From positions 1 to 64,000 of the forward strand of contig NZ_FOQF01000021.1 in NCBI RefSeq assembly GCF_900113655.1: DNA of 64,000 bases. The letters run 5' to 3'. This stretch comes from Pseudobutyrivibrio sp. OR37. GTDB lineage: Bacteria; Bacillota; Clostridia; Lachnospirales; Lachnospiraceae. The notes under the pieces were generated by a model, which ran no database searches, was not told where the DNA came from, and saw only the letters and a list, made by a program, of their open reading frames with translations. The first letter of the stretch is position 1. Each line of letters starts with the position of its first letter. The position numbers were made by a program, and so were the translations under genes. Shown here in pieces: positions 40,085 through 61,104 of the stretch.

Positions 40085-41194
40085 TTACAATATCTCGTCA
40101 TTGAATCGCTCTATTGGGTTTGGCAGATTCATGGATTTTAGCTGTTCTGTGATTTCATCGTAAAAGGTGTTGCAGATGAAAATTGCTGTGTCCTTTGGGA
40201 GGGCTTTAAGGGCTTCGGGGGATTTGATCTGAAGTCCAAAAGCTTCACTTCCCCATAGGCTGCTATTGTTGTCGCAGGTAAATGCAGGTGGATAATCTGC
40301 CCCGAAATTCTCCATATAAACACGGCACATATTTCCTGCACCAAAGAGCACTCTACTATCGTATTTACGAATCGTCCTCTCAAGGGTGATTTGCCAATCT
40401 ATATAATCCATTAATGTCTTTGTGTAATTCACATAGGCAGGCTTAAGCGGGCTTGGTACTTCCCAGTACTTTTTGTACCTGTCAATCAGGATACGTCCGT
40501 CGAATTCGCATTTACGAAGTGACAATATCAAATCCTTCAGATTATCTTGCTCGCTCATGTCCACTATATCAATCAAGGCAGCCCACTGGTCAATTAACTC
40601 AGATAATCGCTGTCCCAAATCATTCACTACTTCTGTATTAAGAACCATTCCAAAATGCTCACCGCCAGCCTTTTCATTTAGTAAATCAATAAATTCCACA
40701 AATTGGTATTTATCTGAAAGAATGCCTCTATAAATGTTGCCATTATAAAGAGTTGGCTGGTTTGGAATTAAAATCTTAACATCCGATTTAAGAGCGTACG
40801 GAATCAATGATTCATAAAATAGCTTTGCCTCTTCATCAGTCATTGGTTTTTTAACATCCACGAAGTAAGGATTCACTATAATAGCTTTGCACCCCAATAC
40901 CTTAGCCACATCAAATGACTGGAAAAACAATTCCTCAAGCCTTGCCTTAGGATAAAGCTTTAGCTCATATGCAAATGATGGTGCCTTTGCCACCTCCACA
41001 TCTATGCCATCGGCTTTGCATTGATTAACAAATCCTTCGCAAAGATAGCGTATATCCTCTTCACCTTCAAGGACCTCCTCGGTCTTAAAAGCGTCGAAAT
41101 CCAGCAGGAAATTGTTAAACCCAGCCTGCCTGTGTTCCTTATATGAGTTAGATATTTTTTCTGTAAAACATGTGCCTGTAGAAATCGTTCTCAT
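40085..41194 (-). CDS. TIM-barrel isomerase-like protein fused to a C-terminal GAG Rossmann module
   Basis: A 369-residue two-domain protein. Residues 1-265 look like a divergent xylose-isomerase-type barrel (DFDAFKTEEV, ILIPNQPTLYNG, FGMVLNTEVVNDLG, RILIDRYKKYW), though several metal ligands are not obvious, so it could be inactive or altered. Residues about 278-365 are the recurring Rossmann module: RVLFGAGNMCRVYMENFG (FGAG at 284-287), then CDNNSSLWG, SPEALKALP and AIFICNTFYDEI. Its ATG overlaps the stop codon of the upstream multidomain gene (TAATG), so translation is coupled. Confidence 0.65.
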   Translation of the reverse strand: MRTISTGTCFTEKISNSYKEHRQAGFNNFLLDFDAFKTEEVLEGEEDIRYLCEGFVNQCKADGIDVEVAKAPSFAYELKLYPKARLEELFFQSFDVAKVLGCKAIIVNPYFVDVKKPMTDEEAKLFYESLIPYALKSDVKILIPNQPTLYNGNIYRGILSDKYQFVEFIDLLNEKAGGEHFGMVLNTEVVNDLGQRLSELIDQWAALIDIVDMSEQDNLKDLILSLRKCEFDGRILIDRYKKYWEVPSPLKPAYVNYTKTLMDYIDWQITLERTIRKYDSRVLFGAGNMCRVYMENFGADYPPAFTCDNNSSLWGSEAFGLQIKSPEALKALPKDTAIFICNTFYDEITEQLKSMNLPNPIERFNDEIL

Positions 41195-43548
41195 TATTTT
41201 TCCTCTTCCTGTGATGAATCTCTAAGCTGGCCCTTTAGCATGGTGGAGCTGATTTCTTCTGTGTATGGGAAGAATACCAGGTCACTGCCTTGCTGATGCA
41301 ACCACTCCCTCACTGCCAGCCAATTTGGGTCATCCGCATAATCACTGCCTGAAAACTGCGCATCAAATCTGTAGGTGCGATAAGCATATTCTGTGCCGGC
41401 GTTATCTGCAGGAATCGTCACCGCCTCATCCACATATCTGCAGCCTTGCACTATGGCATAGCGCTGCTCAAATGGAATCATAGGCCTGGTCTTTTTATTG
41501 TGCATAATCTGCTCATCTGTAACTACGCCCACAATCAGATAATCACACTGTTCCTTAGCGCGGCGCAGCAGATTCAAATGGCCGATGTGGAACATATCAA
41601 ACACCCCTGCAACATAGCCGATGTGGTATTTTTTCGCTGGCTTTCCTTCTGTGGCCTGAGCCACATGCTTAAGCGGCCTTGGATAATCTAGCCTTGGGTC
41701 AAATACAGCGATATTAGGAACAGCCATATCTTTGAGCTGCGAAAGCACATCATCATAAAACTTAATGCAGATGAAAACCTTGTAACCTTCAGTTTCATTT
41801 ACCAAAGTCTCTGGCGAGCATATTGGAATGCCCTCTACATCAGTGCCCCATTTACTCGCATTGTTGTCGATACAAGCAACGATTTTGTACTCATTTCGGA
41901 ATTTTTCTATAAACTTTTTCGCATAATCACCGGAACCGAAAAGATAGATTTTCTTGCCCTCTACATCCTTGAAAATATCAGTGAATAACTTTTCATACTG
42001 GTCCTGAGTGTAGTCCATCCTAAAACGATTGTTAACGATAGTATTGTAATCCGCTCTGACCTTTCTATTGTAGGCAACCAGCTCCTGGTCATTAATGAAA
42101 TCGATAAGATTTTTGCTAACCTGCAGCCTGAATATTTCAGCGTTTGTTTTTAGATTAAAATAATCCAGCACCTCATCCATTGGAAGTAGCCGATAGCCCT
42201 CTGGCCAGTATGCGTATACCACCTCTATTAGCCTTAAGAATATGGCGTTTGCAGGAATCTGTGGCACATAAAATTCTTGGTCAAAAAATACCGGACCATC
42301 ATCTGTCATAAAGCAGTTGATTGGCGCCAAATCCAGGTAGCCTCGCTCCAGGATGATTCCTATGGCTGCCTTGTCCTCAGCGGTGCCGTTTGCTAAATCC
42401 CGCCATTTGTATAGCTCTGGATCGTCTGACTTTCGTTTCTGCCAGTATGGATCGAACTTGGTCCAGTCCACTTCATCGTATGGTAGTTGGCGGGATGAGT
42501 TTTCGATTATAGTTTTGAATTTGGCAAGCTCTGTTAAAAAGGCTTTTTTGCCCTTTTGTGTAAGGGTGTTTCTCAGGTATTCTGTGAGAATCTGTCCCTT
42601 TATGAATGGGGTTTCGTAACCTGCTTCTGTTAGCTTGCCTTCTATCACTGGAACGCCGTATTCCCTAAGATAGCTTGCATTGGCGTCGATTTTTTGAAGA
42701 GCAGTAGCCCCCGCTGGATACATATTTTTCTTTACTACTTTATTCGTATATACGATAGTTGCCAGGGCAGATTGTGGACTGCGGCCTGTCTGTACAGTGA
42801 TTTCCAGGATATCGTCTAAATTTTTTGTTTGGTCTGTTTTGCCCCCTGCCTGTGATTTGGTGCAAATATACAAATATCCATCTGCCATTTGATGCAGCAA
42901 ATCGTTTTTCATAAAATCATCATACAGATTGTTTTTATTAAGATATAATGTCTCGGGAGAATTGTACATTCCCTGGATTCTTGCGTCGAACCGCTCATTA
43001 GGCTTTTCGCCGTATCGCACCATAATCTGAGGTCTGAATATACTTGGGAAAACGCTAAATACTTTGGTGTCTTTCAGTCCTACTGCTGCAAGCATCTCGT
43101 CAATCTCCACCTTAGAATAGCTATGGCCGCCTATTTCCTTCATTCTCTTTTCGCTTATCTGTGCATAGTTATCAATGCCATCTAACACATGACCTGTTGT
43201 TACATCCTTATCCCCAAGGAATTGCCCCAGATTAAAGCGGTTAAACGTGGCCAAGAAAAACATACCATCATCCTTCAGATTGGCCGCCGCAGCAGCCATC
43301 AGCTTGCCTGGCTCTATAGTACTTTCCAATCCTGCTGCAATCACCACATAATCATATCCACCGCTGACCTCTTCAAGACGCGGGATATCCACAACCTCCG
43401 CCTGCATTCCCACATCCTCGAATACAGAAAAAAGCACCTCAAAGGCAGGGAAGTTCCCTGTAATTAAAAGTGCTTTACTATCTTTTTTGAAATTGTACCA
43501 GCTGATCAGCCCCCGCGCCAAATCACGTACTGAATCTGTTGTGTTCAT
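41194..43548 (-). CDS. Four-part protein: methyltransferase-like, kinase-like, GAG module, cytidylyltransferase
   Basis: A 784-residue protein. Residues 1-185 resemble a class I methyltransferase fold without a clear glycine-rich SAM loop (ALLITGNFPAF, YDYVVIAAGLES, DDGMFFLATFNRFNLGQFLG). Residues about 210-470 have a kinase-like middle (NMYPAGATALQKIDAN; APINCFMTDDGPVFFDQEF), like choline or sugar kinases. A GAG module follows (about 530-620, KKIYLFGSGDYAKKFIEKF). Residues about 640-770 form a TagD-like nucleotidyltransferase with HIGH (654-657). It could phosphorylate and then cytidylylate one substrate. ATG at 43548 follows GGGAG; a longer frame of ten codons is possible. Confidence 0.65.
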   Translation of the reverse strand: MNTTDSVRDLARGLISWYNFKKDSKALLITGNFPAFEVLFSVFEDVGMQAEVVDIPRLEEVSGGYDYVVIAAGLESTIEPGKLMAAAAANLKDDGMFFLATFNRFNLGQFLGDKDVTTGHVLDGIDNYAQISEKRMKEIGGHSYSKVEIDEMLAAVGLKDTKVFSVFPSIFRPQIMVRYGEKPNERFDARIQGMYNSPETLYLNKNNLYDDFMKNDLLHQMADGYLYICTKSQAGGKTDQTKNLDDILEITVQTGRSPQSALATIVYTNKVVKKNMYPAGATALQKIDANASYLREYGVPVIEGKLTEAGYETPFIKGQILTEYLRNTLTQKGKKAFLTELAKFKTIIENSSRQLPYDEVDWTKFDPYWQKRKSDDPELYKWRDLANGTAEDKAAIGIILERGYLDLAPINCFMTDDGPVFFDQEFYVPQIPANAIFLRLIEVVYAYWPEGYRLLPMDEVLDYFNLKTNAEIFRLQVSKNLIDFINDQELVAYNRKVRADYNTIVNNRFRMDYTQDQYEKLFTDIFKDVEGKKIYLFGSGDYAKKFIEKFRNEYKIVACIDNNASKWGTDVEGIPICSPETLVNETEGYKVFICIKFYDDVLSQLKDMAVPNIAVFDPRLDYPRPLKHVAQATEGKPAKKYHIGYVAGVFDMFHIGHLNLLRRAKEQCDYLIVGVVTDEQIMHNKKTRPMIPFEQRYAIVQGCRYVDEAVTIPADNAGTEYAYRTYRFDAQFSGSDYADDPNWLAVREWLHQQGSDLVFFPYTEEISSTMLKGQLRDSSQEEEK

Positions 43549-43586
43549 ACTCGCTCCCGCATATACCATATTAATCATAAACTCTT

Positions 43587-44648: not shown

Positions 44649-44700
44649 ACATCCTCCCTTTAGCGTCACTTAATACAGTATCTATTTTATAATTATAGAT

Positions 44701-44806: not shown

Positions 44807-46144
44807 TTATAGACTATACCGTATCGCATCACTTAAAAACAAAACATTATCTATTGCAAGTCTCTGCAGATTTTGGAGCATTTCATATTGATTCTCTTCT
44901 TTTACAGTGATAATAAAAATCGTATTTTCACCACAATCTTTAAACTCATCAATTTGTTTAACCGGTATACCATCTTTTTCATCTTGATTATCGGATCTGG
45001 ATGTTACTGCAAATACAAGCTGTGATTTTTGAACCCCAATATTAACCAAATCATCCTTAACTTTGCTTCCAACGACGCCTGCCCCATATAAAACGATGTT
45101 TTTATATGATGCCGCTTTTGTAAGGATTGCATCTTTATACACGCTAGCATTCATCGTGCCTTGCCACAGCCTATTGTCAAAAATCTTTTTACCTGTCTTT
45201 TTATAAAATGCATCCTTATCAGCTATTATTTCTTTTGCAGTGGCTACCGCTTCATCATCCCAGATATCTGCTGAAAAATCTCCTCGAGATTCGTATATAC
45301 GAAGACGGCGGGCAAGTTCGTTTAGCATGACGAACTGGTAGGCCGGTACTGCCAAATAATAGTTTTCAATAAAAATTCTAAAAGAGAGCCTAGACAAAAT
45401 AGGCTCTAAAATTTGCTGATTACCTTGTGATGCAAGCCGTCCATTACAATGATCTATCTCACCACATAATTTATCTAATTTATTTTCCATTTTTACTGAT
45501 GAATTTGGATTAGTTATTCTATAGTGATAATATGCTTTATCCGTAAAAAATACATTATTTGCATTTGCAAAAACTTGAAACACAAATGATACATCCTGAA
45601 ATGATGCCCCTGGTGTTTCATGAAATCTAACATTATTGCTCTTTAAAAAATCAGCTTTATACAATGCGCTCCATATTGTTTGCATTAGTAAAAAAGCTTT
45701 TTGTTCTTTTATAGGATTGACGTTTTTATTTAAAGGTAACTCATTAACTAGTTCCTCAATTATTGATGATTCGTCAAAGTCCGAATAATAATAAAAATTA
45801 GACTTTACTACATCAGCACCTGATTCTTCTGCAATAGTTAATAGCTTTTCAAACATATCTGAATCAATATAATCGTCACTTTCAACTATGCCTATATATT
45901 CGCCGTTTGCTTCATCTAATCCCACATTCATGGTGTTACCATAACCTGTGTTGTACTTATCTATCAGCCTGAAACGCTCATCCAGTTTTACATACTTTTC
46001 AATAATCGACTTGCTACCATCAGTAGATCCGTCGTTTATACACAGTATTTCCATGTCTTTCAATGTCTGCAGGTGTAAAGACTTGAGGCATTGGTCTAAG
46101 TATTTTTCAACGTTGTATATCGGAACAAGTACTGATAGTTTCAT
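44807..46144 (-). CDS. GT2 glycosyltransferase with C-terminal GAG module
   Basis: A 445-residue cytoplasmic glycosyltransferase. The GT-A domain (about 1-230) opens LSVLVPIYNVEKYLDQCL, has NDGSTDGS, and its DXD-type motif is ESDDY at 88-92. After a helical linker the Rossmann module begins at about 347 (NIVLYGAGVVGSKVKDDL, GAG at 354-356) and ends near 440. It would add one sugar to a lipid-linked or nascent chain; donor and acceptor are unknown. A GAGAGG ribosome binding site lies nine bases after the preceding stop, in the same long operon. Confidence 0.83.
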   Translation of the reverse strand: MKLSVLVPIYNVEKYLDQCLKSLHLQTLKDMEILCINDGSTDGSKSIIEKYVKLDERFRLIDKYNTGYGNTMNVGLDEANGEYIGIVESDDYIDSDMFEKLLTIAEESGADVVKSNFYYYSDFDESSIIEELVNELPLNKNVNPIKEQKAFLLMQTIWSALYKADFLKSNNVRFHETPGASFQDVSFVFQVFANANNVFFTDKAYYHYRITNPNSSVKMENKLDKLCGEIDHCNGRLASQGNQQILEPILSRLSFRIFIENYYLAVPAYQFVMLNELARRLRIYESRGDFSADIWDDEAVATAKEIIADKDAFYKKTGKKIFDNRLWQGTMNASVYKDAILTKAASYKNIVLYGAGVVGSKVKDDLVNIGVQKSQLVFAVTSRSDNQDEKDGIPVKQIDEFKDCGENTIFIITVKEENQYEMLQNLQRLAIDNVLFLSDAIRYSL

Positions 46145-46153
46145 AATATCCTC

Positions 46154-47560
46154 TCACATGTTATGGTGATTAGTATAATTATCAATCGTCAATTCAATTT
46201 CTCTCTCAATGTTATCTGCTAGAATATCTAGTGTAAAATACTTTTCATAAGTGTCTCTAGCCTTTTCTCTCATATCATCTAATTCATTTAAATGATTTAT
46301 TATGTACTGAAGCTTTTTTGCTAAGGTATTAATATCACCAGCTTTATATACAAAACCATTCACACCATCTTCTATATATTCAGCTATTCCTGTCTCATCT
46401 GTAGTAATGCAAATTTTCGAATCCATCATGCCTTCAACAACTGAAAGACAAAGAGTTTCCTCATAGGAAGCACAAATTACAACATTTATTTTTTTTCTTT
46501 GAGCCACCAATTCATCTCTATTTAAAACTCCTTCTAACGATACCTGCAATTCCGAACTCTCTTTAATCTTTTTTTCATAATCATCATCTCCTATTGCACC
46601 TATAATCTTATATTCAACTTCTTTTTGATTATTTTTAAGGAGTTTTATTGCATTGATTACATCTAATTGACCTTTTGCAGGTGCCACAGTTCCAAGCGTT
46701 GCAAATACAATAGTACTTACGTCGGCTTCTTCCTTAGATGAAAGAGATTCATCATTAATGCCTACTGGGAAGATGCAGTCAATTTTCCTCTCGTAAATGC
46801 TTTCAAATACATTTTTCGCTATAGTACTTACTGCTGCAATTCTTATGTTATTGAATAAAGATGCATTATCATATCTGTAGTGTTTTTGCCTAGTGTTTTT
46901 ATAAAAATAATTGTATTTATCACTGCTTTCATGTAACCACCATAACACTGGCACTCTCTTTGATAGTTCACATGCAACCCTTATCATTGGAAACACATTT
47001 ACTAATGCAATATCATAATCGCAAAAAATATCAACATCGTCCTGGTTAATGTATGGTAAATGTGGACATATGATTAATCCAATTCCTGCATTTCGAAGTA
47101 TTTCTATAATAGCGGAATCTGCATGTGCTACTGTAATATCTACAGAATAACCTCGTCTAGTTAAAGCTAATGAAGCGTTTACAGCTGCCATGGCACCACC
47201 ATTGAAAAGCAAAGGTTCAGATATTACCAAAATCTTTTTAAAAGAATTACCTTTTGCTACAAGAATTCTTTGAAAGGCCCTTTTTGAAATACTAATATAT
47301 TCTTCAAAATCTAAAATTTTACTATCATCTATACCAATATTGTGAAGTTGTTCTCTAATATTTTTATAATCTGTAGCCATTACGATTATGTAATCAAAAG
47401 CTACTTTTTTTATTTCATTAGGGTGATATACCTTTTTATCTTCAAAAGAACCTATTTCGTTTGCACGATTATCAACAAAAGCTTCTATTTTATCCGTATC
47501 AAGTAACTCTTGTTTTTTCTTTTGATAAAACTTTCCTGTTCCAAAAATTAATAATTTCAT
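46154..47560 (-). CDS. GT4 glycosyltransferase with N-terminal GAG-like module
   Basis: A 468-residue protein. The Rossmann-like module is at the N-terminus (LLIFGTGKFYQKKKQELL, FGTG at 6-9, then FVDNRANEIG and FDYIIVMATDYKNI). From about residue 105 it is a GT-B glycosyltransferase: ILVISEPLLFNGGAMAAVNA, then the GT4 donor region ASYEETLCLSVVEGMMDSK and DGVNGFVYKAGD. It would use a nucleotide sugar as donor, with retention of configuration. Spacing to both neighbours is under 20 bases. Confidence 0.82.
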   Translation of the reverse strand: MKLLIFGTGKFYQKKKQELLDTDKIEAFVDNRANEIGSFEDKKVYHPNEIKKVAFDYIIVMATDYKNIREQLHNIGIDDSKILDFEEYISISKRAFQRILVAKGNSFKKILVISEPLLFNGGAMAAVNASLALTRRGYSVDITVAHADSAIIEILRNAGIGLIICPHLPYINQDDVDIFCDYDIALVNVFPMIRVACELSKRVPVLWWLHESSDKYNYFYKNTRQKHYRYDNASLFNNIRIAAVSTIAKNVFESIYERKIDCIFPVGINDESLSSKEEADVSTIVFATLGTVAPAKGQLDVINAIKLLKNNQKEVEYKIIGAIGDDDYEKKIKESSELQVSLEGVLNRDELVAQRKKINVVICASYEETLCLSVVEGMMDSKICITTDETGIAEYIEDGVNGFVYKAGDINTLAKKLQYIINHLNELDDMREKARDTYEKYFTLDILADNIEREIELTIDNYTNHHNM

Positions 47561-47577: not shown

Positions 47578-49539
47578 CTATGGTTTATTAATAATTAGTT
47601 TATCAATAGATGTGTATACCTTTTCTTCATCAATACCAAATTCAACCAAAAAATTCTTTATATCTTCCGCTCCATTCTTAACAGCCACAACAATCGCCAT
47701 GTAATCTAATTTATTTATTTCGGACAGAGAACTAACTGGTAATCCTTCGTTGGCAAATTTCTGGTAATTTTGGTCAACCCAGGCTATGATTTTGAAACCT
47801 TTACTTCTAAGCATTTCTGAGTATTCACGACCATATTTCCCTGCCCCATATAGAATTATTGATTTTTCGTGGCAATCAGCTTTGTCTATGTACAAATAAT
47901 CTGCCTGTGCGACATTTTTTACTTTATCTAAACAAGCCTTTTCTTCATCAGTCAATCTTAGCAATGTGTAATTTAAACTATACCCATTAAAAGTCTTTTT
48001 TCCTTTTTGTATTTCTACTAACTCATCTACGCTCACACGTGGACCAAATTTTGTACCATTAATATTATTATCATCTTGTGGGATTTCTCCAAAATAATCT
48101 GCTACGCTTTTTGATGGTTTTGTGAAAAAATCTTTCATCAAAGCAACCGCAATTTCTCTAAAATATGTTGAAATCCCAAATTGGTTTTCAAAAGCAATGA
48201 TTCCATTACATATCTCAATCACAGTTTCAGTAAACCTCTGAAATTGCTTCTCGATAGTTTCATTCATCTCGCGATTATCCAGAACCTCTTTATAGATATC
48301 GCCTACTTTTTCATATCCTATTGTTGCACCATGAGGTGCTCTGCAAATAGCCTCTATATAATGGAATGGCCATGTACAACTATAATATTGAAAGAACTTA
48401 TCCACATAATCTAACTCATAATTTTTCACCTTAGCATAGGAAATAATATTAACGTGCATATCGCAAATTCTTGCCATATTATTCACTGTATTTCCTGTAG
48501 CTATTGTATCTACAAGAGCACTTCTTTTAGTATCTTTTATATTTTCAAATATATATCCTTTTAAATTCTCTTTTTCTTCTGCTGTTTCAGGATTCCAGGC
48601 CTTTCGAGATGAATAAAGATAGATTGTTTTTATATCCAAGCCATAAGTCTGAATGTATATGTCCGCTATATCTTTTAAAATATATCCATCTCGTGCCAAG
48701 AAGAAAAGCTGATTTATATTATTTGCTATACTTACTTCAATTACCCATTTTACGTAATCATAAAGTATAGGTGCACATATAATCCCTGCCTCTATCTCTC
48801 CGCCTTGTAACCCATTTTTTAAATAATACTTTTTACTTATTAAGTGAATTTCTCTTGTCGCTGAACTGCTAATTCTATAATAATTTCCCCAATCTAGGAT
48901 TTTTTCCACATAGTCATCATTCAGATATTCTTCAGTATTTATGCCAAGCAATGAAGATCGCTGATTATCAGATATCTCATCATCACCAATATGTGTCCAA
49001 TCTTTATATTCGACATTTTCAATTCTTCTTATTTTAAAATACAAATGACCTGTCGCTTTTGTTGCATTATAATCACATGAAATATAAATTGGGATGTCTA
49101 AAAAACATTTATCAAATCCTACCAATATTTCCCGAATCACTTCTTCTGGGTAGTACATATCTGAAATAAGAATCACTTTTTCTTTATTTTCTATAAGCTT
49201 TTTTATCCGCGCAATAACCCTCAAGTTTGGATGCAATACAGCTAATTCAATCTCATACTCTAATTGTTTCAACTGTTCCGAATGCTTATGTCCAATTCCT
49301 GCTATTGTTTCTAATTCATTATAAATATGGTCAATATTATATTGATATCTTCCTTCTGCTTTTAGATTTGCCATTCTTTCGGCTTCTTGCCTAATAAATG
49401 CAAATTCCCGCTTCGCTCTTCCAGGTACACTACTGTACTTCTCTGATTCATTAATAATAGATTGCACAATAAAAAAAACTTCAGCCGGATTTCTAACTGC
49501 CCTTATTAGAATTGTATTAAAAATATCAAATGAATACAT
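47578..49539 (-). CDS. HAD-superfamily protein with C-terminal GAG module
   Basis: A 653-residue protein. The N-terminal HAD domain (1-215) has motif I SFDIFNT with Asp5, motif II LISDMYY (126-130), Lys161 and motif III/IV GDDEISD (185-191), so phosphatase chemistry is possible. A second domain (about 235-480) contains FLARDGYILKD and resembles the second half of large HAD-like proteins found in polysaccharide loci. The GAG module is at about 558-645 (SIILYGAGKYGREYSEML). It may dephosphorylate a glycan intermediate. The GGGGAG ribosome binding site is strong. Function remains uncertain. Confidence 0.7.
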   Translation of the reverse strand: MYSFDIFNTILIRAVRNPAEVFFIVQSIINESEKYSSVPGRAKREFAFIRQEAERMANLKAEGRYQYNIDHIYNELETIAGIGHKHSEQLKQLEYEIELAVLHPNLRVIARIKKLIENKEKVILISDMYYPEEVIREILVGFDKCFLDIPIYISCDYNATKATGHLYFKIRRIENVEYKDWTHIGDDEISDNQRSSLLGINTEEYLNDDYVEKILDWGNYYRISSSATREIHLISKKYYLKNGLQGGEIEAGIICAPILYDYVKWVIEVSIANNINQLFFLARDGYILKDIADIYIQTYGLDIKTIYLYSSRKAWNPETAEEKENLKGYIFENIKDTKRSALVDTIATGNTVNNMARICDMHVNIISYAKVKNYELDYVDKFFQYYSCTWPFHYIEAICRAPHGATIGYEKVGDIYKEVLDNREMNETIEKQFQRFTETVIEICNGIIAFENQFGISTYFREIAVALMKDFFTKPSKSVADYFGEIPQDDNNINGTKFGPRVSVDELVEIQKGKKTFNGYSLNYTLLRLTDEEKACLDKVKNVAQADYLYIDKADCHEKSIILYGAGKYGREYSEMLRSKGFKIIAWVDQNYQKFANEGLPVSSLSEINKLDYMAIVVAVKNGAEDIKNFLVEFGIDEEKVYTSIDKLIINKP

Positions 49540-50787: not shown

Positions 50788-51888
50788 TCATCTTTCCATA
50801 TCCTTAGAAACTCTTTCATTATGTTCCTTAAATGAGCTATCCTGCCAAGAGGCTTCATAATGATGTATTGCTTTAGTAAAACTTCTATTTCTAACTCTTC
50901 TAGTTTTTGAACACATTCCATTTATCATTATTCCAGGAAAAACTGTTATACCATCAAGTATCTGGTATTCTCCGTTTGTTACAAGTCCATACTCTTTCAA
51001 CACTGCTGTTTGATATATTGGACATGGCGTCAAATCATTTGAACCATCTTCTTTTATAAATTTTCTATCTTCATAATCATCTAACCAATCTTTCACAACT
51101 CTGTTGCCTTTGCAAGCTCCAAATCCTAACCCTAAAGCAACATATTCCTCATGCTCAAACGCACAAAATGCATCTTGATACAATAATTCATCCAATGATT
51201 GTATGATTTCTACATCCGTATCAAGATATATACCCCCATAATGATATATCACATCAAGCCTTGCGTAATCTGACACAAATCCCCATTTTTTTCTTTTGTA
51301 CGCTTGCCTCATATAGCTATTTTTTTCAATATCATAATTCGTCTCATTCCACTCAATTATTTCGTAATCCGAACAATATTTTTTCCAACTATCTATGCAC
51401 ATTCTATTTAATTGTGATTTTTGATTTTTCCCAAACCAACAATAATGAATTCGTTTGGGTATTAGCATATCAGTTGATTTTTTTATTTCCAGAGGAATAT
51501 TCTTGCAATAGTCAATCTCTTCCTGTTTTATCGCCTGTAGTAAAGCCAATGAATATACATCTAATTCATTTAACAACGGGGTCTCTTTTATAACTGGTAA
51601 TATCTCTTCATATCTTAAATTATTTATTAATAATACGAACTTATCTTTTTTTACAATTTGCTGAGCCTCTTCTATGGAAATAACCTTTATTTCTTGATTA
51701 TTTACATTTATTTTTTGCCCTTGTTTATCAGGACTGCTATCAATTATGTATTTGATTGCGCTTAAAACTAACTTACTTTCCAAAATCGTGGCAAGTTTTA
51801 AGCACATTTTCCCCGCACCATAACAAATGATTGAATAGCCCTTTTCAACTTTGTCAGATAAACTTCCTATACTCTCTACTATAAACAT
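50788..51888 (-). CDS. GT32-like glycosyltransferase with N-terminal GAG module
   Basis: A 366-residue protein. The Rossmann module is at the N-terminus (YSIICYGAGKMCLKLATIL). The catalytic part (from about 120) is a GT32/capsular sugar-transferase fold: RIHYCWFGKNQKS, YEIIEWNE, FVSDYARLDVIYHYGGIYLD with the DTDVE metal motif. The domain order is the same as in the protein at 59038-60126, and they are clearly paralogues. The ATG at 51888 has GGGGGAT six bases before it; an ATG four codons upstream is the alternative. Confidence 0.8.
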   Translation of the reverse strand: MFIVESIGSLSDKVEKGYSIICYGAGKMCLKLATILESKLVLSAIKYIIDSSPDKQGQKINVNNQEIKVISIEEAQQIVKKDKFVLLINNLRYEEILPVIKETPLLNELDVYSLALLQAIKQEEIDYCKNIPLEIKKSTDMLIPKRIHYCWFGKNQKSQLNRMCIDSWKKYCSDYEIIEWNETNYDIEKNSYMRQAYKRKKWGFVSDYARLDVIYHYGGIYLDTDVEIIQSLDELLYQDAFCAFEHEEYVALGLGFGACKGNRVVKDWLDDYEDRKFIKEDGSNDLTPCPIYQTAVLKEYGLVTNGEYQILDGITVFPGIMINGMCSKTRRVRNRSFTKAIHHYEASWQDSSFKEHNERVSKDMER

Positions 51889-53001: not shown

Positions 53002-54123
53002 CTAAATCCCCTTAAGATTAGCCATAAATTGTTTCATATTCTCCTCAGGACTAATCGTAGGTCTCCCCAAATCATCTCTCGCGGCTATTTTACATTTTAT
53101 TTCCAAACAACACAGCCCACTGGTATTCTTAATTATTTCAAGTTTTTCTCTTAAATCATCTATCTTAGAAACCTGAAATACTTTTTCATAGCCACATGAT
53201 AATGCTATCTGTGAGAATTCTTCTACATTAGCTGCTGTAGGCATACCTCCTACTGATTCATGTGCTTCGTTATTAATAATTACATGAACTAGGTTTTTAG
53301 GCTTTATTTTAGCATTTGTAAACATAGCACCCGCATGCATCAAAAAAGCACCATCTCCATCAATACACCATACTCTTTTATCTTTTCTTGTAACAGCTAT
53401 ACCAAGAGCAATTGAAGAAGCATGCCCCATCGAACCTACAGTAAGAAAATCACTTTCGTGTTTTTGATTCAACTGGTCCCTGATTTCAAATAGTTCTCGA
53501 CTAGCTTTTCCTGTGGTACAAACTATTACATCATCTCCTATTGACTTTACTATTTCTCTAATAGCATCTTCTCTTAATAGATTATTATTATTTTTATATT
53601 CCACTTTTCTATCAGTGGTTAAACTATTCTTTTTAAATACAAATGCTACTTGCTGTCCATCTTTTAACAATGGTTCAAATGACTCCATAGCTTGAGAAAT
53701 TGCTTCTACTGATGTATTTTCATCCACTATAAAATACGATACATTCATATTATCTAATAAACTAAGTGTAATTTCACCTTGAAAAGCATGCTGTGGTTCA
53801 TCCTTAACACCTGGCTCTCCTCTCCACCCTATAGCAAATATTACTGGTATTCCATACACCTTTTCATTTAAAAGTGAAACTATAGGATTGACTGCATTTC
53901 CCTCCCCACTATTTTGCATATAAACAAGAGGTACTTTTCCCGTTGCCAGATAATACCCTGCTGCAATACCCACACAATTTCCTTCATTAGCCGCAATTAT
54001 GTGTTTATCGTTTCCAACACCATATTCAGATATTAGGTAATTGCATAGACCTTTCAACTGTGAGTCAGGTACACCTACATAGAATTCTGTTTTTAACACA
54101 TCTAAAAAATGCTTCGCATCCAT
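53002..54123 (-). CDS. ppd: Phosphonopyruvate decarboxylase
   Basis: A 373-residue thiamine-diphosphate enzyme that decarboxylates phosphonopyruvate to phosphonoacetaldehyde, the irreversible step that pulls phosphonate synthesis forward. The PYR domain holds the activating Glu47 in ANEGNCVGIAAG; the PP domain has the GDGAF motif (256-260) and downstream Asn (IINNEAHES). Single-chain layout and length fit the Ppd/AepY family. Other TPP decarboxylases such as sulfopyruvate decarboxylase are related, but the PEP mutase gene next door settles the assignment. The gap to PEP mutase is 11 bases. Confidence 0.93.
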   Translation of the reverse strand: MDAKHFLDVLKTEFYVGVPDSQLKGLCNYLISEYGVGNDKHIIAANEGNCVGIAAGYYLATGKVPLVYMQNSGEGNAVNPIVSLLNEKVYGIPVIFAIGWRGEPGVKDEPQHAFQGEITLSLLDNMNVSYFIVDENTSVEAISQAMESFEPLLKDGQQVAFVFKKNSLTTDRKVEYKNNNNLLREDAIREIVKSIGDDVIVCTTGKASRELFEIRDQLNQKHESDFLTVGSMGHASSIALGIAVTRKDKRVWCIDGDGAFLMHAGAMFTNAKIKPKNLVHVIINNEAHESVGGMPTAANVEEFSQIALSCGYEKVFQVSKIDDLREKLEIIKNTSGLCCLEIKCKIAARDDLGRPTISPEENMKQFMANLKGI

Positions 54124-54134
54124 CCATTTGCTCC

Positions 54135-55430
54135 CTAGATTTCATCTATTAAAGTAATTATATCTTTAATTGACATAAGCCTGTCATCTACTTCTTTTGC
54201 CCTATGATATTTTAAAATATCTTTTGCCGTCTGCACCATGGCTGGAAATGCACTTCGGGTAAGTTGATTAGCGTAAATAACCATGTTTACTCCATGCTCA
54301 ACCAATTCATTTTCAGTAATTGTATTATATGAAGTAGGTACTACAACTATAGGCGTCTCTTTATTGACCTCTCTAAACTTGTCGCAAAACTCTAATACTT
54401 CGTTAGGCTCTTTCTTTCTGCTATGTATCATTATTCCATCAGCACCTGCATCTACATATGCATGAGCTCTCACTAAGGCATCCGTTAATCCTTTTTCAAG
54501 AACCAAGCTCTCAATACGAGCAATAATCATAAAGTCATCCGTAAGCTGAACTTTTTTTCCAGCCTTAATCTTACTGCAAAAATGTTCTATATCATCTTGC
54601 TCCTGCTTAGCTTCTACTCCAAATAAAGAATTTCGCTTAAGTCCTATCTTATCCTCAATAATAATCGCAGATACTCCCATGCGTTCTAGAGTTCTTACCG
54701 CATATACGAAATGAGCAGTTTGTCCACCTGTATCTCCATCAAAAATAATAGGCTTAGTTGTAACCTCAAGTACATCATCAATAGTTCTGAATCTAGAAGT
54801 AAGATCCACAACTTCTATATCAGGCTTACCTTTTGCTGTAGAATCACATAATGAACTAATCCACATAGCGTCAAACTGATTAATTTCTCCGTCTTTCTCT
54901 ACTACAGTTTTTTCTGCAATTAGTCCTGTAATACCACTATGAACTTCGATAGTTTTAACTATAGGACACAGTCTAATGAGATTCTTTAATCTTTTTCGCC
55001 TATATTCTGGCATGCCAAGCTTTTCCTTGATTCGTGCATCAATTCTTCTTACATTATCATTATATGTATATGGAACATCAATAATTTTACCACCATACTC
55101 ATTCAATCTCTTTTCTACATGGTCTCGTATAGCCTTCATTGGTCCTTGACACCAATTATCTCCATGAATGACATAATCCGGATGTAATTCATCAATCACA
55201 TCATCATACATAAGATTATTCTGTTTAATGACATCAAACACCCCATCGATGTTTTTAACTAACTCTACTCTTTTTTCTTGATTCAAAATTGGAAATCTAT
55301 CAAATTTAATTGCTTCTTCATCAGCTAAAACACCTATCGTAAGCTCACCATATTTAACTGCTTCATTGATAATGTTAAGATGCCCCTCATGAATCACATC
55401 TGTAACAAAGCAGGTGTATATTTTCTTCAT
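54135..55430 (-). CDS. pepM: Phosphoenolpyruvate mutase with N-terminal cytidylyltransferase domain
   Basis: A 431-residue fusion. Residues about 1-130 are a nucleotidyltransferase with HEGH (14-17) and YVIHGDNWCQGP. Residues about 150-431 are PEP mutase, which forms the C-P bond by turning PEP into phosphonopyruvate; FDGDTGG (230-236) and the diagnostic EDKIGLKRNS (259-268, EDK-x5-NS) separate it from isocitrate lyase relatives. The fusion is known in Bacteroides-type AepX proteins. ATG at 55430 has GGGGTGGAG; an ATG eight codons upstream overlaps the previous stop but has no ribosome binding site. Confidence 0.94.
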   Translation of the reverse strand: MKKIYTCFVTDVIHEGHLNIINEAVKYGELTIGVLADEEAIKFDRFPILNQEKRVELVKNIDGVFDVIKQNNLMYDDVIDELHPDYVIHGDNWCQGPMKAIRDHVEKRLNEYGGKIIDVPYTYNDNVRRIDARIKEKLGMPEYRRKRLKNLIRLCPIVKTIEVHSGITGLIAEKTVVEKDGEINQFDAMWISSLCDSTAKGKPDIEVVDLTSRFRTIDDVLEVTTKPIIFDGDTGGQTAHFVYAVRTLERMGVSAIIIEDKIGLKRNSLFGVEAKQEQDDIEHFCSKIKAGKKVQLTDDFMIIARIESLVLEKGLTDALVRAHAYVDAGADGIMIHSRKKEPNEVLEFCDKFREVNKETPIVVVPTSYNTITENELVEHGVNMVIYANQLTRSAFPAMVQTAKDILKYHRAKEVDDRLMSIKDIITLIDEI

Positions 55431-55450
55431 TCTCCACCCCTTCATTTCAT

Positions 55451-56167
55451 TCATAAATATTTTAAATAACTTTTATCTAGCTGAACCAATTCCTGTACTG
55501 TATCGATTTCTGTAACAACTCCTTCTTTTATTGGATATACTTTCAAATCAAATGTATCAAGATTAGCATCCACTACCTCATCCCAAAAAAGATTTCTATT
55601 TACGTTATTCTGAAAGGCTTCATTTATCTTATCCGCCAATATTTTAGTATCATTTTTATTAAAAAATGATAGACCTATCATGTTGTAACAATCTGTTCCA
55701 CCTTTTCTTACTCTAGTAATTTTAAGATTATCATCTGTTTCAAATATCCAATCATCGGAATATCCTTCTACCAATGTCCCAAAATAGCCTGAATTATCTA
55801 ATTGTTTGTTAAACACTTGAGCATCTGAAATATATAAATCTCCTTCGCAAATCAAACAATTACTATTGCGTATTACATCTGTTACTTTATACAAAGAAGA
55901 TATATTGTTACACTCTTTATATAAATCATTATATATAAGAGTAAGGTTGGGATATTTCTCTTCTAGAATTTTGAATTGTTCTCCTAAGTATCCTACTACA
56001 ACATATATCCTATCTATACCTCTATTATTTAGCCCATCTATTATTGTCTCCACAAGTGCTTTCCCATTAACTATAACCATAGGCTTAGGTACATTTTTAG
56101 TTATAGGATACATCCTTTTCCCCAATCCTGCTGCCAATATAACGGCAATATCTTTTGTATTATTCAT
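55451..56167 (-). CDS. LicC/PntC-like nucleotidyltransferase, probable AEP cytidylyltransferase
   Basis: A 238-residue nucleotidyltransferase. ILAAGLGKRMYPITKNVPKP is the nucleotide-binding signature and NDLYKECNNISSLY matches choline-phosphate cytidylyltransferases of the LicC kind. Relatives named PntC activate 2-aminoethylphosphonate with CTP to give CMP-AEP. Its place between the transaminase and PEP mutase genes strongly suggests the same here, although a sugar-1-phosphate substrate is not excluded. The ATG at 56167 lies inside the end of the transaminase gene; the long overlap supports coupling. Confidence 0.82.
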   Translation of the reverse strand: MNNTKDIAVILAAGLGKRMYPITKNVPKPMVIVNGKALVETIIDGLNNRGIDRIYVVVGYLGEQFKILEEKYPNLTLIYNDLYKECNNISSLYKVTDVIRNSNCLICEGDLYISDAQVFNKQLDNSGYFGTLVEGYSDDWIFETDDNLKITRVRKGGTDCYNMIGLSFFNKNDTKILADKINEAFQNNVNRNLFWDEVVDANLDTFDLKVYPIKEGVVTEIDTVQELVQLDKSYLKYL

Positions 56168-57278
56168 AGTGTACAGGCACCTCAACTCCTATCTTTCTGT
56201 GAGCCTCCTTAAATACTTTAAAAAAATCACGTATATCATTAACTGTAATGGCACCTAAAGAGCACAATCTGAATGTTTTCGAGCTCATAATCTTACCTGG
56301 ATATATAGTAAAGCCCCGTTCATAACAATAATCATGTATTTCTTCAAAATTAAAGTTATTATCATCGGGATAAATAGCTGTAGCCACTAATCCGGCACGA
56401 TACTCTGGTTTAATGACTTGTTTATATCCCATCTCTTCTAACCCCTTACAAATCTCATCAAAAACACCTTTGTGCCGTTCCCATTTAGCCTCTTCACCTT
56501 CCTCCCAGTATTCCTTTATAGCTTGCTTAGTCGCATATGCTGTCTGTACAGGTGGTGTAAAATGCATTTCTCCGGTGCGCTCAAAAAAATCATACTGTAG
56601 AAATAGATTGCAGTAGTATGATCGTCTAGGATAATCCTTAGAAGCTTCTATTATTGACTTTCGCCCCACTATAAACGAGAGTCCTGTCATAGACATAAGA
56701 CCTTTTTGAGCAGATGCCATACAAAAATCTATATTATCTTTTATCACATCAATAGGTCGCATAGCATATGTCGATGTAGTATCAACTACAAATATTGCCC
56801 CATATCTATGAGCAACTTCCCCTATATCTCTTATCGGATTAAGTAACCCAGTTCCCGTCTCATTGTGAGTAGTATATACTAGCGAAATATCTTCATGTTC
56901 TTTTAATTGTTTTTCCACCAACTCAATATCTGCAGGTTCATAAATAGGTAGCTTTAATTCCAAAAAATCTAATCCATAATATTCGCATACTTCTACAGCT
57001 CTACTACTATACGAACCATTGTTTACGATAAGAGCCCTCTTCCCTTCAGGAATAAGTGAATTAAGACAGACATCAATATTTATAGTGCCAGAGCCACAGA
57101 ATAATACAGCAGTATACTTCCCATCTCCGTGTACTATTTTTACTAAGTCCCTTCTAATTTCCTGCATAAGTTTTGTAAATTCTTTTTCCCTAGGACATAT
57201 GTCAGGAACCACCTGTGCCATCTTTACACTATCTGTTGTTGTTGCAGGACCTGGATTTAACAATACATTTCTTTTCAT
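56160..57278 (-). CDS. phnW: 2-aminoethylphosphonate-pyruvate transaminase
   Basis: A 372-residue class V PLP aminotransferase. Asp166 (VVDTTS) contacts the pyridine nitrogen and Lys192 (SAQKGLMS) binds PLP. The NPGPATTTDSVKMAQ opening is characteristic of PhnW/AepZ. It can run in either direction; next to PEP mutase and Ppd it should make 2-aminoethylphosphonate from phosphonoacetaldehyde rather than degrade it. No phosphonatase gene (PhnX) is visible. It begins four bases after the phosphatase-superfamily gene upstream. Confidence 0.93.
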   Translation of the reverse strand: MKRNVLLNPGPATTTDSVKMAQVVPDICPREKEFTKLMQEIRRDLVKIVHGDGKYTAVLFCGSGTINIDVCLNSLIPEGKRALIVNNGSYSSRAVEVCEYYGLDFLELKLPIYEPADIELVEKQLKEHEDISLVYTTHNETGTGLLNPIRDIGEVAHRYGAIFVVDTTSTYAMRPIDVIKDNIDFCMASAQKGLMSMTGLSFIVGRKSIIEASKDYPRRSYYCNLFLQYDFFERTGEMHFTPPVQTAYATKQAIKEYWEEGEEAKWERHKGVFDEICKGLEEMGYKQVIKPEYRAGLVATAIYPDDNNFNFEEIHDYCYERGFTIYPGKIMSSKTFRLCSLGAITVNDIRDFFKVFKEAHRKIGVEVPVHYE

Positions 57279-57281: not shown

Positions 57282-59033
57282 CTAAGCCCCCAAAACAGTA
57301 ATCTGGTCTCTAACAATATCGTATATACGATTTATTTCATTGTCATCAAATATTTGATGTTCATTTACATACAATTTCTTTAGGCCATTACTAAATACAA
57401 TAAGCTTCTTGCCATCTTCAAACACAAAAGCCTCAAAAGCCATAAGATTCTCTTCATGCCCCATCTCTCTATACAGAAATCTAAAATCAGGGTTATATAT
57501 TTGAGTGCGAGCGCACTTAACATATTTTTTTTTAGGTATTATTGGTACTTCATCTTTTTCAAGCGCAATTACAACATTATTCATTTCAGAAAGAGATACT
57601 ATATCATCACATTCTCCATTAGGTATATACTCTCCTATTAATACAAATGGTATCTCTGTCCATTCTGCAGAACATGACAACTGAATCTCCGAAACATCCT
57701 TAAGTGTTGCATTCTTAGGAAGGAGAAGATTTCCATGATCAGCATACAAAAAAATCTTAAATCTGCTGAGTTCTATAAATTCGGCCATTATTCCATCAAC
57801 ATATCTTAAAGAATCGTTATGCTGTCTAATATAATCAGCTCTCAATTTACCCCCTTTAGCTGGCAAAAAATCGAACAGCATTGCTGTCCCCTCAAACACC
57901 ACATCTCCAGACGTGTATGGATTAGAGAATGAATAATGTGTTTCATATAATTCATGTAAAATAAACAAACCATTATCTGTTTCAAGCGCATCCATTACAA
58001 ATTCCCATAACTTCTCTGTTATAGTCTGAAATGCCCCGCAATGATTAATCCCTTCACCCTCAATGTGCTTGTCCATATCCGTATATAAGTGAATGTCTCT
58101 ACCTTGCTTCAATGCCTCTTTAATAAATCTACAATCACTAGCATCCACTACGCCGTGATTATAATAATTCGTACTTAAATCATAATTCTCACTATATACG
58201 GGAACTAAACTCTCAAATGTTGATGTTGAAAATGAATATGCATTAGTATATCTATAGCCCTTCTGATTTATTACTGCCATTAACCTAGGCATATTGTCCT
58301 CTGTCACGTCACTACGTCTCATCCCATCTAGACACATCAAAAGAACATTTTTGCTACCAATTTTTTTATATCCCTCTAATAATTGTTCTCGAATCTCTTT
58401 TATATCACCCAACAACAACTTATATGTCTCATTAGGAAAAAGTGACAATAATCTTTCTACACTCTCTGCCGCCAAACGAAAATCCTTGATTTGAATGTAT
58501 AATGAAACCAATTCAAATAATTTTTCTTCCGATTCTAAATTTTTATTAAGTTTATTAATGGTTCTGTACAACTGATGAGGATGTGTTCCATAATAATAAT
58601 CTGCATTAAGTTTAATTCCTCTAGCATTGATTTCATCATAAATATCAAGTGCTGGTATGTCTGGACATATTTTGGTTAATTTCTCCTTTATTTCTTTTCT
58701 AAATTTATAAGAAGAAATGATTATTCCATCTATATCGAATTCACTAATCTGATCGTCTGAAATTTGTTTGAAACCTGACTCGTTTTCCTGATTATAGTTA
58801 TCGATAATAATCTTTACATTTTTCATTTCAAACATAAAGTCAGCCATTAGCATCCTGGTATGACCACCATTCGCGTATAATGCAGGTTTTTTTTTGTCTT
58901 TCAAAAAATGCTCCAAAATATCTTTAACGTTCAATGCTATTTTTTTTGAATCTAGCGGCCTATTTAGGCTATATTTTTCAAATAACTCATCATATTTTTT
59001 TATTAACTCTTTTCGTAAATTAAAATTTGTCAT
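57282..59033 (-). CDS. Alkaline-phosphatase-superfamily protein with GAG-like N-terminal region
   Basis: A 583-residue protein without signal peptide or membrane helix. Residues about 35-140 look like a divergent GAG Rossmann module (KKPALYANGGHTRMLMADF, IIIDNYNQENE). From about 228 it is a sulfatase/LTA-synthase-like fold: VLLMCLDGMRR (metal Asp236), a Thr/Ser nucleophile region SFSTSTFES (267-275), HELYETHYSF and YADHGN (430-435). Family members transfer or hydrolyse phosphoethanolamine, phosphoglycerol or phosphonates. Being cytoplasmic and beside the AEP genes, it could act on AEP or its ester. ATG at 59033; a TTG six codons upstream is open. Confidence 0.68.
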   Translation of the reverse strand: MTNFNLRKELIKKYDELFEKYSLNRPLDSKKIALNVKDILEHFLKDKKKPALYANGGHTRMLMADFMFEMKNVKIIIDNYNQENESGFKQISDDQISEFDIDGIIISSYKFRKEIKEKLTKICPDIPALDIYDEINARGIKLNADYYYGTHPHQLYRTINKLNKNLESEEKLFELVSLYIQIKDFRLAAESVERLLSLFPNETYKLLLGDIKEIREQLLEGYKKIGSKNVLLMCLDGMRRSDVTEDNMPRLMAVINQKGYRYTNAYSFSTSTFESLVPVYSENYDLSTNYYNHGVVDASDCRFIKEALKQGRDIHLYTDMDKHIEGEGINHCGAFQTITEKLWEFVMDALETDNGLFILHELYETHYSFSNPYTSGDVVFEGTAMLFDFLPAKGGKLRADYIRQHNDSLRYVDGIMAEFIELSRFKIFLYADHGNLLLPKNATLKDVSEIQLSCSAEWTEIPFVLIGEYIPNGECDDIVSLSEMNNVVIALEKDEVPIIPKKKYVKCARTQIYNPDFRFLYREMGHEENLMAFEAFVFEDGKKLIVFSNGLKKLYVNEHQIFDDNEINRIYDIVRDQITVLGA

Positions 59034-59037
59034 ACTT

Positions 59038-60126
59038 CTATTTCTTTTCAACTCTATTCATTAGTGTTCTCATAAATGACGTGTTTTTCTTTTCCTCTAC
59101 TAATTTCCAGCTTCCTACCTCTTTATGGAGTGAAACTGTTTTCTCAGTAATCATATTAGGCATACCTTCTATTGTTAAAGGTGACATTACTTCTCGCGGA
59201 TACAATACAATCTCGTCTTTCTTTTGATATTGATTTATAATCTCAAATCCATATTTTTTTAATACAGGATGAGAAAAGGTATGGTCCTGCGTTTTTTTAA
59301 ATTCTCCACCGGTATCCCTAATAGATACACATATATAATCTATCATCTCTTGAATAATATCCGCATTACTTATAGAACCAAATCCGCAACCTCTGCTTAC
59401 CATCTCTCCAGAGCCCATATTAAAAAAAGATTTATCTTTTAGTAAAATATCAAAATTTGCTATAGCCTCCACATCCGTATCCAAATATATTCCACCATAT
59501 TTGTTAATGATATCTAATCTTGCAAGATTAGGTACAAAACCCCACGCTCTACTAGTAAATGCTAATTTAGTATATTCATCTTTACAAAAATCATAATTAC
59601 TTTCGTCCCATCGTATAATTTCATAATCAGGATTATACTTTCTCCAAGACTCTATATTTTTTTTAAATTCACCCGGTAATTCTTTTCCTCCAACCCAAAT
59701 ATAATGAATTTTCTTTGGAATAAGTTGAGGTCCCTTCGTGAATTCCCATGGCTTTATTTCCTCAAATGTATTTCTCATTATTATTGAAAGATAACACTCT
59801 AATTCGTCAAGCTCTGGTATAGCATCAAGCTGCTCTACTACTTCGTTTGCATAAAAAGGAGAATCAATGTAACAAATTAGGTTCTTATTTGTCTTATATG
59901 CTTTTATCAAATTGTTTAACGAGTAAATCATATATATTTTCCCGTTAAACTCATGCTCTGTGTTCCATAAACCATCATTATTGTCCACAACAAAAAGCAC
60001 ATTCTCATTTTCAAAATATATATCCAAACAACTATCTAAAGCTCTACCTGCTCCAAATATTACTATTTCCTTATCCTTTATATAATTTTTGAAAGCAACT
60101 GGACCCATGTTTTTTAAAGTAACCAT
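59038..60126 (-). CDS. GT32-like glycosyltransferase with N-terminal GAG module
   Basis: A 362-residue paralogue of the protein at 50788-51888. FGAG is at 24-27 (KEIVIFGAGRALDSCLDIYF, VVDNNDGLW). The catalytic domain has KKIHYIWVGGKELPGEF, YEIIRWDESNYDF, FVPNLARLDIINKYGGIYLD and DTDVEA. It would transfer a sugar from a nucleotide donor. AAGGA lies upstream of the ATG. A 165-base gap separates it from the preceding gene; that gap holds only very short open frames and no clear promoter. Confidence 0.8.
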   Translation of the reverse strand: MVTLKNMGPVAFKNYIKDKEIVIFGAGRALDSCLDIYFENENVLFVVDNNDGLWNTEHEFNGKIYMIYSLNNLIKAYKTNKNLICYIDSPFYANEVVEQLDAIPELDELECYLSIIMRNTFEEIKPWEFTKGPQLIPKKIHYIWVGGKELPGEFKKNIESWRKYNPDYEIIRWDESNYDFCKDEYTKLAFTSRAWGFVPNLARLDIINKYGGIYLDTDVEAIANFDILLKDKSFFNMGSGEMVSRGCGFGSISNADIIQEMIDYICVSIRDTGGEFKKTQDHTFSHPVLKKYGFEIINQYQKKDEIVLYPREVMSPLTIEGMPNMITEKTVSLHKEVGSWKLVEEKKNTSFMRTLMNRVEKK

Positions 60127-60291: not shown

Positions 60292-61104
60292 CTAAAATAT
60301 TTCTTCAAAAGAGCTCTCAATTTTCGCATTTACCTGCAACAGTGTTAAAAGGTTTTGTCTGCTGATTTTGTTTTCCAACTCACTTTCATGTATTAATCCT
60401 CCTAAACCATGAATCTCTTCTTGTCTCATAGTGCTGGGGTAAATATTAACATTAACTAAGGAAACTTTTTTGTATATTGCCATGCTTAGTCTGTGAACAC
60501 CATCAATGTGTTTATAATTATCTAATATAGATATTGGATAATTATTCAAAAAGCCTCTAGTCTCTATACTACGAATCAAATCCTTAAAATTGATTAGTCT
60601 CTTTTTTGCTGTTTCATGAGAGCAATACAATTCCATACATGCCATATAGATATCATCACCATCATTTCTCAGGCCATAAAATTGTTCCAATACTACATAT
60701 CTTGTTGCAATTAAAAGATTATCTTTATTTGCTAGATAAATTTGCTTTACTGGAATCTTAATATTTTTTTTTATAGGTGTTCCTAACATAAATTCATAAA
60801 GAAATGGATATATCCAAATACATTTATCACATCTTTCTTTAAGTAACACTTTATTAATTTCTTCTTTCAATGATTCGTGTACTGCAAGACATACGACATA
60901 ATCACTAATTTTTATATTATCTATTGATTTTATTGGATAATTATCTATACTCTTGGTATCTCCCTCCGTTGTCACAAAGCATTCTAAATTATCTTCTAAA
61001 CTTCGTATTTTTATACCTTTATAAAATTTTTCAGCAACATATCCTGCACCATAGATTATGAATTTGTTATTCTTAAGAATATTGATAAATTCTTCAAATT
61101 CCAT
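60292..61104 (-). CDS. GAG module fused to a ParB/Srx-like domain
   Basis: A 270-residue protein. The N-terminal GAG module (about 13-100, KFIIYGAGYVAEKFYKG, YGAG at 18-21) is followed by a region that contains ILDNYKHIDGVHRLSMAIYK (DGVHR at 201-205), the fingerprint of ParB N-terminal/sulfiredoxin-like domains. Such domains can bind or hydrolyse nucleotides, or phosphorylate serine, as in CTP-using ParB and the SbnI family. In a glycan locus it could be a CTP-dependent kinase or sensor. GGAGAT precedes the ATG and the gene overlaps the TagB/TagF-like gene by 11 bases. Confidence 0.6.
   Translation of the reverse strand: MEFEEFINILKNNKFIIYGAGYVAEKFYKGIKIRSLEDNLECFVTTEGDTKSIDNYPIKSIDNIKISDYVVCLAVHESLKEEINKVLLKERCDKCIWIYPFLYEFMLGTPIKKNIKIPVKQIYLANKDNLLIATRYVVLEQFYGLRNDGDDIYMACMELYCSHETAKKRLINFKDLIRSIETRGFLNNYPISILDNYKHIDGVHRLSMAIYKKVSLVNVNIYPSTMRQEEIHGLGGLIHESELENKISRQNLLTLLQVNAKIESSFEEIF

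Follow-up and report, generated by a model that had tools for sequence, protein, structure and literature searches.

In the genome of a rumen bacterium, ten predicted surface-sugar enzymes of several unrelated kinds, encoded by adjacent genes, carry the same small domain of a nucleotide-binding type. The window analysed here is a stretch of 64,000 bases (bases 1-64000 of the 67080-base contig C22; genome, 3.56 Mb), and the ten proteins lie between positions 40085 and 61104, each with one Rossmann-like module of about 100 residues. The domain itself is already known, and we claim neither a new fold nor a new family. The new aspect is the use of the module throughout an assembly locus, of which we found no description in the titles and abstract openings of the open-access literature, a silence that is weak evidence of absence.

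A sequence-only reading of this DNA had proposed that one module recurs in the ten proteins. We excised and aligned the ten modules, left each out in turn, and ran the resulting nine-module profile on the 250 open reading frames (ORFs) of the window (stop to stop, at least 60 aa). The held-out protein was recovered in all ten cases, with scores of 15.9-51.0 bits as whole ORFs and 21.7-55.7 bits as cut modules. The best scores among the other 240 ORFs and among 2,500 shuffled ORFs were 10.1 and 9.9 bits. These leave-one-out profiles support a single shared module type present at all ten places. Nine of the ten held-out modules also outscored three Rossmann-type proteins of the same genome (a PglD-like protein, a CapD-like protein and a 476-aa protein). 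The idea that the modules resemble each other more than they resemble distant Rossmann domains thus stands for nine and fails for the 57282 module, which had rightly been singled out as the weakest copy and falls below the PglD-like outgroup (21.6 versus 24.7 bits). The 59038 module is only slightly above the outgroups (25.9 versus 23.4 bits). The modules sit at the C-terminus, at the N-terminus or inside their proteins, in each case as originally described:

Module A, 40088..40393 (-): C-terminal in 40085-41194 (residues 268-369), TIM-barrel type partner, with FGAG and TCDNN; leave-one-out 47.5 bits.
Module B, 41683..41985 (-): internal in the 794-aa protein 41194-43578 (residues 532-632), whose N-terminus is methyltransferase-like below the Pfam cut-off and whose C-terminus is CTP_transf_like (Pfam 8.4e-18); leave-one-out 55.7 bits.
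Module C, 44810..45133 (-): C-terminal in the GT2 44807-46144 (residues 338-445; Glycos_transf_2 4.4e-32), beta2 tip without an acidic residue; leave-one-out 41.6 bits.
Module D, 47267..47560 (-): N-terminal in the GT4 46154-47560 (residues 1-98); leave-one-out 31.1 bits; C2185-like_N 32.0 bits, cut-off 27.
Module E, 47581..47898 (-): C-terminal in 47578-49539 (residues 548-653); leave-one-out 48.7 bits; PglD_N 32.5 bits, cut-off 23.4; model pLDDT 85.
Module F, 49577..49888 (-): C-terminal in the GT2 49574-50791 (residues 302-405; Glycos_transf_2 5.4e-35); leave-one-out 47.7 bits.
Module G, 51526..51879 (-): N-terminal in the GT32-like 50788-51900 (residues 8-125; Gly_transf_sug 5.2e-17); leave-one-out 33.1 bits.
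Module H, weakest, 58596..58919 (-): N-terminal in 57282-59051 (residues 45-152), YANGGH instead of GAG, and IIDNY; leave-one-out 21.7 bits.
Module I, 59767..60111 (-): N-terminal in the GT32-like 59038-60126 (residues 6-120; Gly_transf_sug 1.8e-14); leave-one-out 26.2 bits.
Module J, 60769..61104 (-): N-terminal in 60292-61104 (residues 1-112), beta2 tip without an acidic residue; leave-one-out 28.2 bits.

The partner labels first given by eye held in part. GT2, GT4 and GT32-type partners exceed Pfam cut-offs, as does a cytidylyltransferase-like partner (CTP_transf_like), while Pfam did not confirm the HAD label of 47578. Searches of Pfam, PDB sequences and PHROGs gave no support to 60292 as ParB-like or to 57282 as phosphatase- or sulfatase-like; the PDB-sequence matches of 57282 were designed TIM barrels and were disregarded. 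No Pfam family was found in 40085, and its TIM-barrel label is carried by a BLAST link to 39125, which has AP_endonuc_2. These two neighbours, 39125-40081 and 40085-41194, fall into one BLAST group, the former without and the latter with the module. The middle part of 41194-43578 had no match in a PDB search and by eye resembles an APH/LicA-type kinase (LAPINCFMTDDGPVFFDQE). With this kinase part judged by eye, the 794-aa protein may make a CDP-activated alcohol on a single chain. An AAA-type ATPase (ATPase_2) is encoded amid the glycan genes, on the same strand (43587-44669); of the three members of its BLAST group, one is on a control contig of the same genome (C32).

Two further groups of genes in the window lack the module:

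53002..57278 (-): aminoethylphosphonate-type genes (Pfam; putative pathway), comprising a TPP enzyme (53002), CTP_transf_like with PEP mutase (54135), a nucleotidyltransferase (55451) and a class-V aminotransferase (56160).
61094..63812 (-): Glyphos_transf, CDP-glycerol type (61094, Pfam 5.1e-65), an Asn_synthase-like protein (62346, Pfam 4.8e-17) and CTP_transf_like (63390, Pfam 3.3e-20).

The PEP mutase of 54135 carries EDKIGLKRNS. This PEP-mutase motif and the frequent fusion of PEP mutase with a nucleotidyltransferase are described in the available text of PMC6697681. With its aminoethylphosphonate-type enzymes, CDP-glycerol-type transferase and GT2, GT4 and GT32-like transferases, the locus looks like a surface-polymer pathway.

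The consensus of the domain across the genus passes the Pfam cut-offs of C2185-like_N (Pfam accession PF22674, 45.5 versus 27 bits), CoA_binding (30.6 versus 22.3), PglD_N (Pfam accession PF17836, 29.1 versus 23.4), Methyltransf_14 (28.9 versus 23.5) and TrkA_N (25.4 versus 23.8), and the best solved relatives of the profile include 3nkl, Rex, 2g6t, VioB and WbaP. These matches place the domain in a known superfamily. Single proteins match less often. C2185-like_N is over its cut-off in 46154, reaches 16.9 bits in 47578, and is not among the matches listed for the other eight window proteins; PglD_N passes in 47578 only. We also scanned 127 module proteins of other genus genomes (58 + 69) with Pfam at E 0.001 or better. 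C2185-like_N was found in 4 of the 69 and was not among the 25 families listed for the 58, and PglD_N was found in 5 of the 58 and 3 of the 69.

C2185-like_N is the closest known family by consensus score and also by predicted fold. The AlphaFold model of the 47578 module, built from the ten-module alignment (pLDDT 85), has as its top Foldseek match the Clostridium acetobutylicum structure 2g6t (E 1.8e-4, TMq 0.66). The model of the 57282 module, built from three orthologues only, is of moderate confidence (pLDDT 73) and has the same top match (E 2.2e-3, TMq 0.51), with no match at E 0.001 or better. The two models, from separate alignments, have a similar order of strands and helices, and their common top match agrees with the prediction of one fold. 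C2185-like_N is named for the N-terminus of a single protein, whereas the module described here occurs with more than ten Pfam partner families (E 0.001), at either end or inside, and many times per locus. The partner domain in 2g6t, which we take to be DUF1919, matches 2 of 69 module genes.

Strong matches to the module in this genome are confined to the one locus. A ten-module profile, trained on the same ten window proteins, scores each of them at 90 bits or more, and the next place in the genome scores 21.7 bits. With a broader profile of 60 rows, two weaker places are added, including the PglD-like protein (44.1 bits). On four control contigs of the same genome (C24, C31, C32 and C56), none of 103 called genes has the module, and a fifth (C63) has one weak match, in the CapD-like protein. 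The genome has 27 GT2 matches; among the 16 listed, two are in the locus, both with the module. A 213-aa frame on contig C78 had been considered a Rex and the nearest relative in the genome; it was rejected as a Rex, having by eye hexapeptide-like repeats after a PglD-type start.

We identified module matches at E 0.001 or better in 25 of 29 genomes of the genus, this genome included. Twenty regions of 13 genus genomes, chosen for having module matches, together with the window hold 137 module genes. Within the bounds of these chosen loci, set by the outermost module genes, 218 genes encode at least 120 aa, and 137 of them carry the module. The 140 domains counted comprise 65 at the C-terminus, 57 at the N-terminus and 18 inside their proteins, and all are fused by the rule of at least 60 further residues beside the module, although four module genes of this set encode only 158-174 aa.

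Beyond the genus, multi-copy loci are patchy in the family, and certain further families of the phylum have them too. Of 150 family genomes, 134 have a match at 1e-5 and 36 have four or more matches; where a genome has a single match, this is likely often a PglD-like or Rex-like protein, judging by frame lengths. In the phylum, 48 of 249 genomes match at 1e-9, mostly once or twice, and some other families reach three or more. We chose thirteen further regions from ten genomes, eight of the family and two of other families. The number of module genes per region ranges from 2 to 12, and their proportion from 12 of 16 genes (L085) to 3 of 17 (L087); one 116-aa ORF in these regions is nearly the module alone. 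Two regions from a genome of another genus (L097 and L098, G560) contain two adjacent long ORFs of 756 and 766 aa with module hits of 28.4 and 41.5 bits. The alignment of 57282 to these ORFs pairs its module-bearing N-terminal part with their C-terminal part, placing the same module type at the opposite end. In another region, the module appears to be N-terminal on a cyclase-like protein (L059:4666-6453, -) and C-terminal on an F420-hydrogenase-like protein (L059:6501-7733, -); both labels were given by eye, and both would widen the range of partners.

The partners of the module are mostly predicted transferases. In the 127 module proteins, GT2 is the most frequent (28 proteins), followed by methyltransferases, radical SAM, LicD, cytidylyltransferase-like and RgpF, and further partners are GT4, GT9, GT32-type, Glyphos_transf, WbsX, FkbM, HAD-type and DUF1919. 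The 75 module-free neighbours within locus bounds are led by GT2 (11), GT4 (5) and NTP_transf_3 (5), with epimerases and NTP_transferases, and the latter two appear only in the neighbours' list among the 25 families listed per set. The share of GT2 does not differ significantly between proteins with and without the module (28/127 versus 11/75, p 0.27).

We examined 60 gene-called GT2s, 29 of which carry the module, always at the C-terminus (29/29). The 31 without it comprise 15 in module-locus regions, flanks included (15 of the 44 there), and 16 in control contigs, where no GT2 carries the module (0/16). Among 150 GT2 matches listed for eight genus genomes, 21 have a listed module match at a distance of up to 20 kb, and for 14 the distance is at most 1.5 kb. 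A quick tree with long branches rejects a single clade of the 29 module-bearing GT2s (AU p 2e-12), and module state changes 8 times on this tree (shuffled mean 20.4), with at least 3 changes on starred branches. Gain or loss of the module thus seems to have occurred repeatedly among GT2s, with a fixed architecture.

Conservation was assessed in 142 domains from the window and the 20 genus regions. A GxG loop is present in 125 of them and GxG together with an acidic beta2 tip in 101, so that the site is incomplete in 41; in the window, seven of ten modules have both, and C, H and J lack a complete site. The strongest columns include two glycines (96% and 92%), the preceding aromatic residue (Y/F/W, 92%) and the D of the beta2 tip (83%), while the third loop glycine is G in 56% and A in 18%. 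With 12 pocket and 44 exposed-type columns chosen by hand, the pocket is better conserved than the other exposed-type columns (mean 1.68 versus 0.87 bits, one-sided p 0.005; hydrophobic columns, 1.20). Three exposed-type columns outside the pocket set (599, 635 and 614) are conserved like much of the pocket.

Related domains bind nucleotides at this site. PglD_N, found in the PglD, NeuD and VioB sugar acetyltransferases, shares with the module a GxG-type loop and an acidic beta2 tip. In those enzymes it lies ahead of a left-handed beta-helix acetyltransferase and serves to hold the substrate; in contrast, no left-handed beta-helix (hexapeptide) family is among the Pfam matches listed for the ten window proteins. 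Structure titles record a TDP-sugar with VioB (7txp) and NAD+ with a Rex. The NAD domain of the Rex repressor, presumably of the CoA_binding family (PF02629), matches the profile at 39.7 and 39.1 bits and has its motifs in the same order as the module. Rex adds a DNA-binding domain, whereas no DNA-binding domain family is among the partner families listed here (25 per set). In a PglD-type acetyltransferase, the N-terminal domain is a UDP platform, in which Asp40 and Ser11 lie close to the ribose and Asp41 is at the uracil, according to the available text of PMC8040287. The conserved D of the module probably corresponds to Asp40, judging by motif order and not by superposition.

A precedent for regulation comes from the add-on domain of WbaP (8t53), which we assume to be of the CoA_binding_3 type and which matches the module in fold and, at 26.6 bits, in profile. 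The portions of PMC10942596 available to us report that this domain is stabilised by UMP, UDP and UTP and that UMP inhibits the enzyme; its authors assign the domain a regulatory and dimerising role and suggest that feedback control of glycan flux may extend more widely. Unlike the membrane phosphoglycosyl transferase WbaP, the module genes here seldom encode membrane segments: by hydropathy prediction, 6 of the 137 have at least one, and none has three or more (0/137 versus 2/81 other genes within locus bounds).

The conserved site, the UDP platform of the PglD-type enzyme and the WbaP regulator together favour a nucleotide-binding, regulatory reading. We lean towards the view that the module is a ligand-binding domain for a nucleotide or nucleotide-sugar, with a probably regulatory role; binding, regulatory effect and ligand identity are all things that we infer. 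In this view the module belongs to the C2185-like_N / PglD_N group, as an add-on Rossmann domain whose nucleotide-phosphate pocket is retained in most copies, and it would bind a nucleotide or nucleotide-sugar, possibly NAD(H). Binding would adjust the activity or substrate supply of the fused enzyme, much as ACT domains do in enzymes of amino-acid metabolism. ACT domains are small ligand-binding modules fused to many unrelated enzymes of one metabolism, with amino acids as ligands. The module would work alike with a different fold, and we claim no homology.

The same modules could instead serve as docking units that pair with each other or with a hub and so hold the soluble assembly enzymes in one complex, a role that the sequence-only reading had offered beside ligand sensing and that we consider unlikely. 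The dense co-occurrence of module genes in the chosen loci fits such a role, as does the dimer element of WbaP (in the available text of PMC10942596), and exposed columns tend weakly to be more alike within clusters (33/500 label shuffles reach the observed value). This trend is not significant, however, and neither is whole-module likeness within versus between clusters (19.9% versus 19.6% identity; 52/300 shuffles); the GT2s without the module in module-locus regions also speak against docking. Two further comparisons within clusters, of the variable pocket columns (41/500, a weak trend) and of the beta2 tip (259/500), were likewise not significant, and with none of the four shuffle tests significant we reject a cluster-specific code. 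Of the proposed ligand sensing, the conserved GxG loop and acidic tip, with relatives that bind nucleotides there, lend support to the general claim, while the pocket-column and whole-module tests give no significant support to a tuning of the modules of a cluster to one metabolite.

As a catalytic substrate domain, the module would bind the nucleotide-sugar (donor or acceptor) for the enzyme to which it belongs, like the domain of PglD, and would not be a regulator; precedents are PglD-type enzymes and VioB. Module similarity also tends to follow the partner, in that for 80 of 142 modules the nearest neighbour comes from a different cluster and belongs to the same partner group, these groups being coarse single-linkage BLAST groups in which orthologues count. 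GT2 and GT4 enzymes already possess their own donor sites, though, module-free GT2s are common, and the module sits at different ends in different proteins; we find this role distinctly improbable. Still harder to credit is a structural or hitch-hiking remnant, by which old folding-stabilising fusions would have been kept as loci draw on a common gene pool. The invariant C-terminal placement in GT2s and the incomplete sites could be read in this way, but module-bearing GT2s do not form one clade, and the site is intact in 101 of 142 domains despite a mean pairwise module identity of about 20%.

For the nucleotide-sensing role that we prefer, CDP or CMP was considered as the general ligand. Within the genus this is plausible. 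At least 24 of 45 Glyphos_transf (PF04464) matches are within 20 kb of a module match, among the 150 module matches listed, and such 20-kb surroundings amount to 1.4-3.7% of the genome in the eight genomes computed; contig breaks hide further pairs. Outside the genus, the specific CDP link fails at the genome level, and we reject it as a general one: PF04464 is present in 17 of 24 genomes with at least six module matches and in 12 of 16 without any. One genome with 13 module matches has no PF04464 (G115), and some others have it inside the module locus (G061, G118 and G307).

Tentatively, many Lachnospiraceae and some related Firmicutes may use one interchangeable nucleotide-sensing module to wire whole loci for surface glycans. 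If so, the glycosyltransferases, methyltransferases and phosphotransferases of a locus would respond together to one class of nucleotide signal, and the module would be an ‘ACT domain’ of glycan assembly. This bears on how bacteria coordinate a dozen soluble glycan enzymes that share a scarce lipid carrier and nucleotide-sugars. A direct search for its ligand could start from the module expressed by itself, which is small and sits on most of a locus's enzymes. One such answer would inform the study of many enzymes from gut and rumen bacteria whose annotation is poor.
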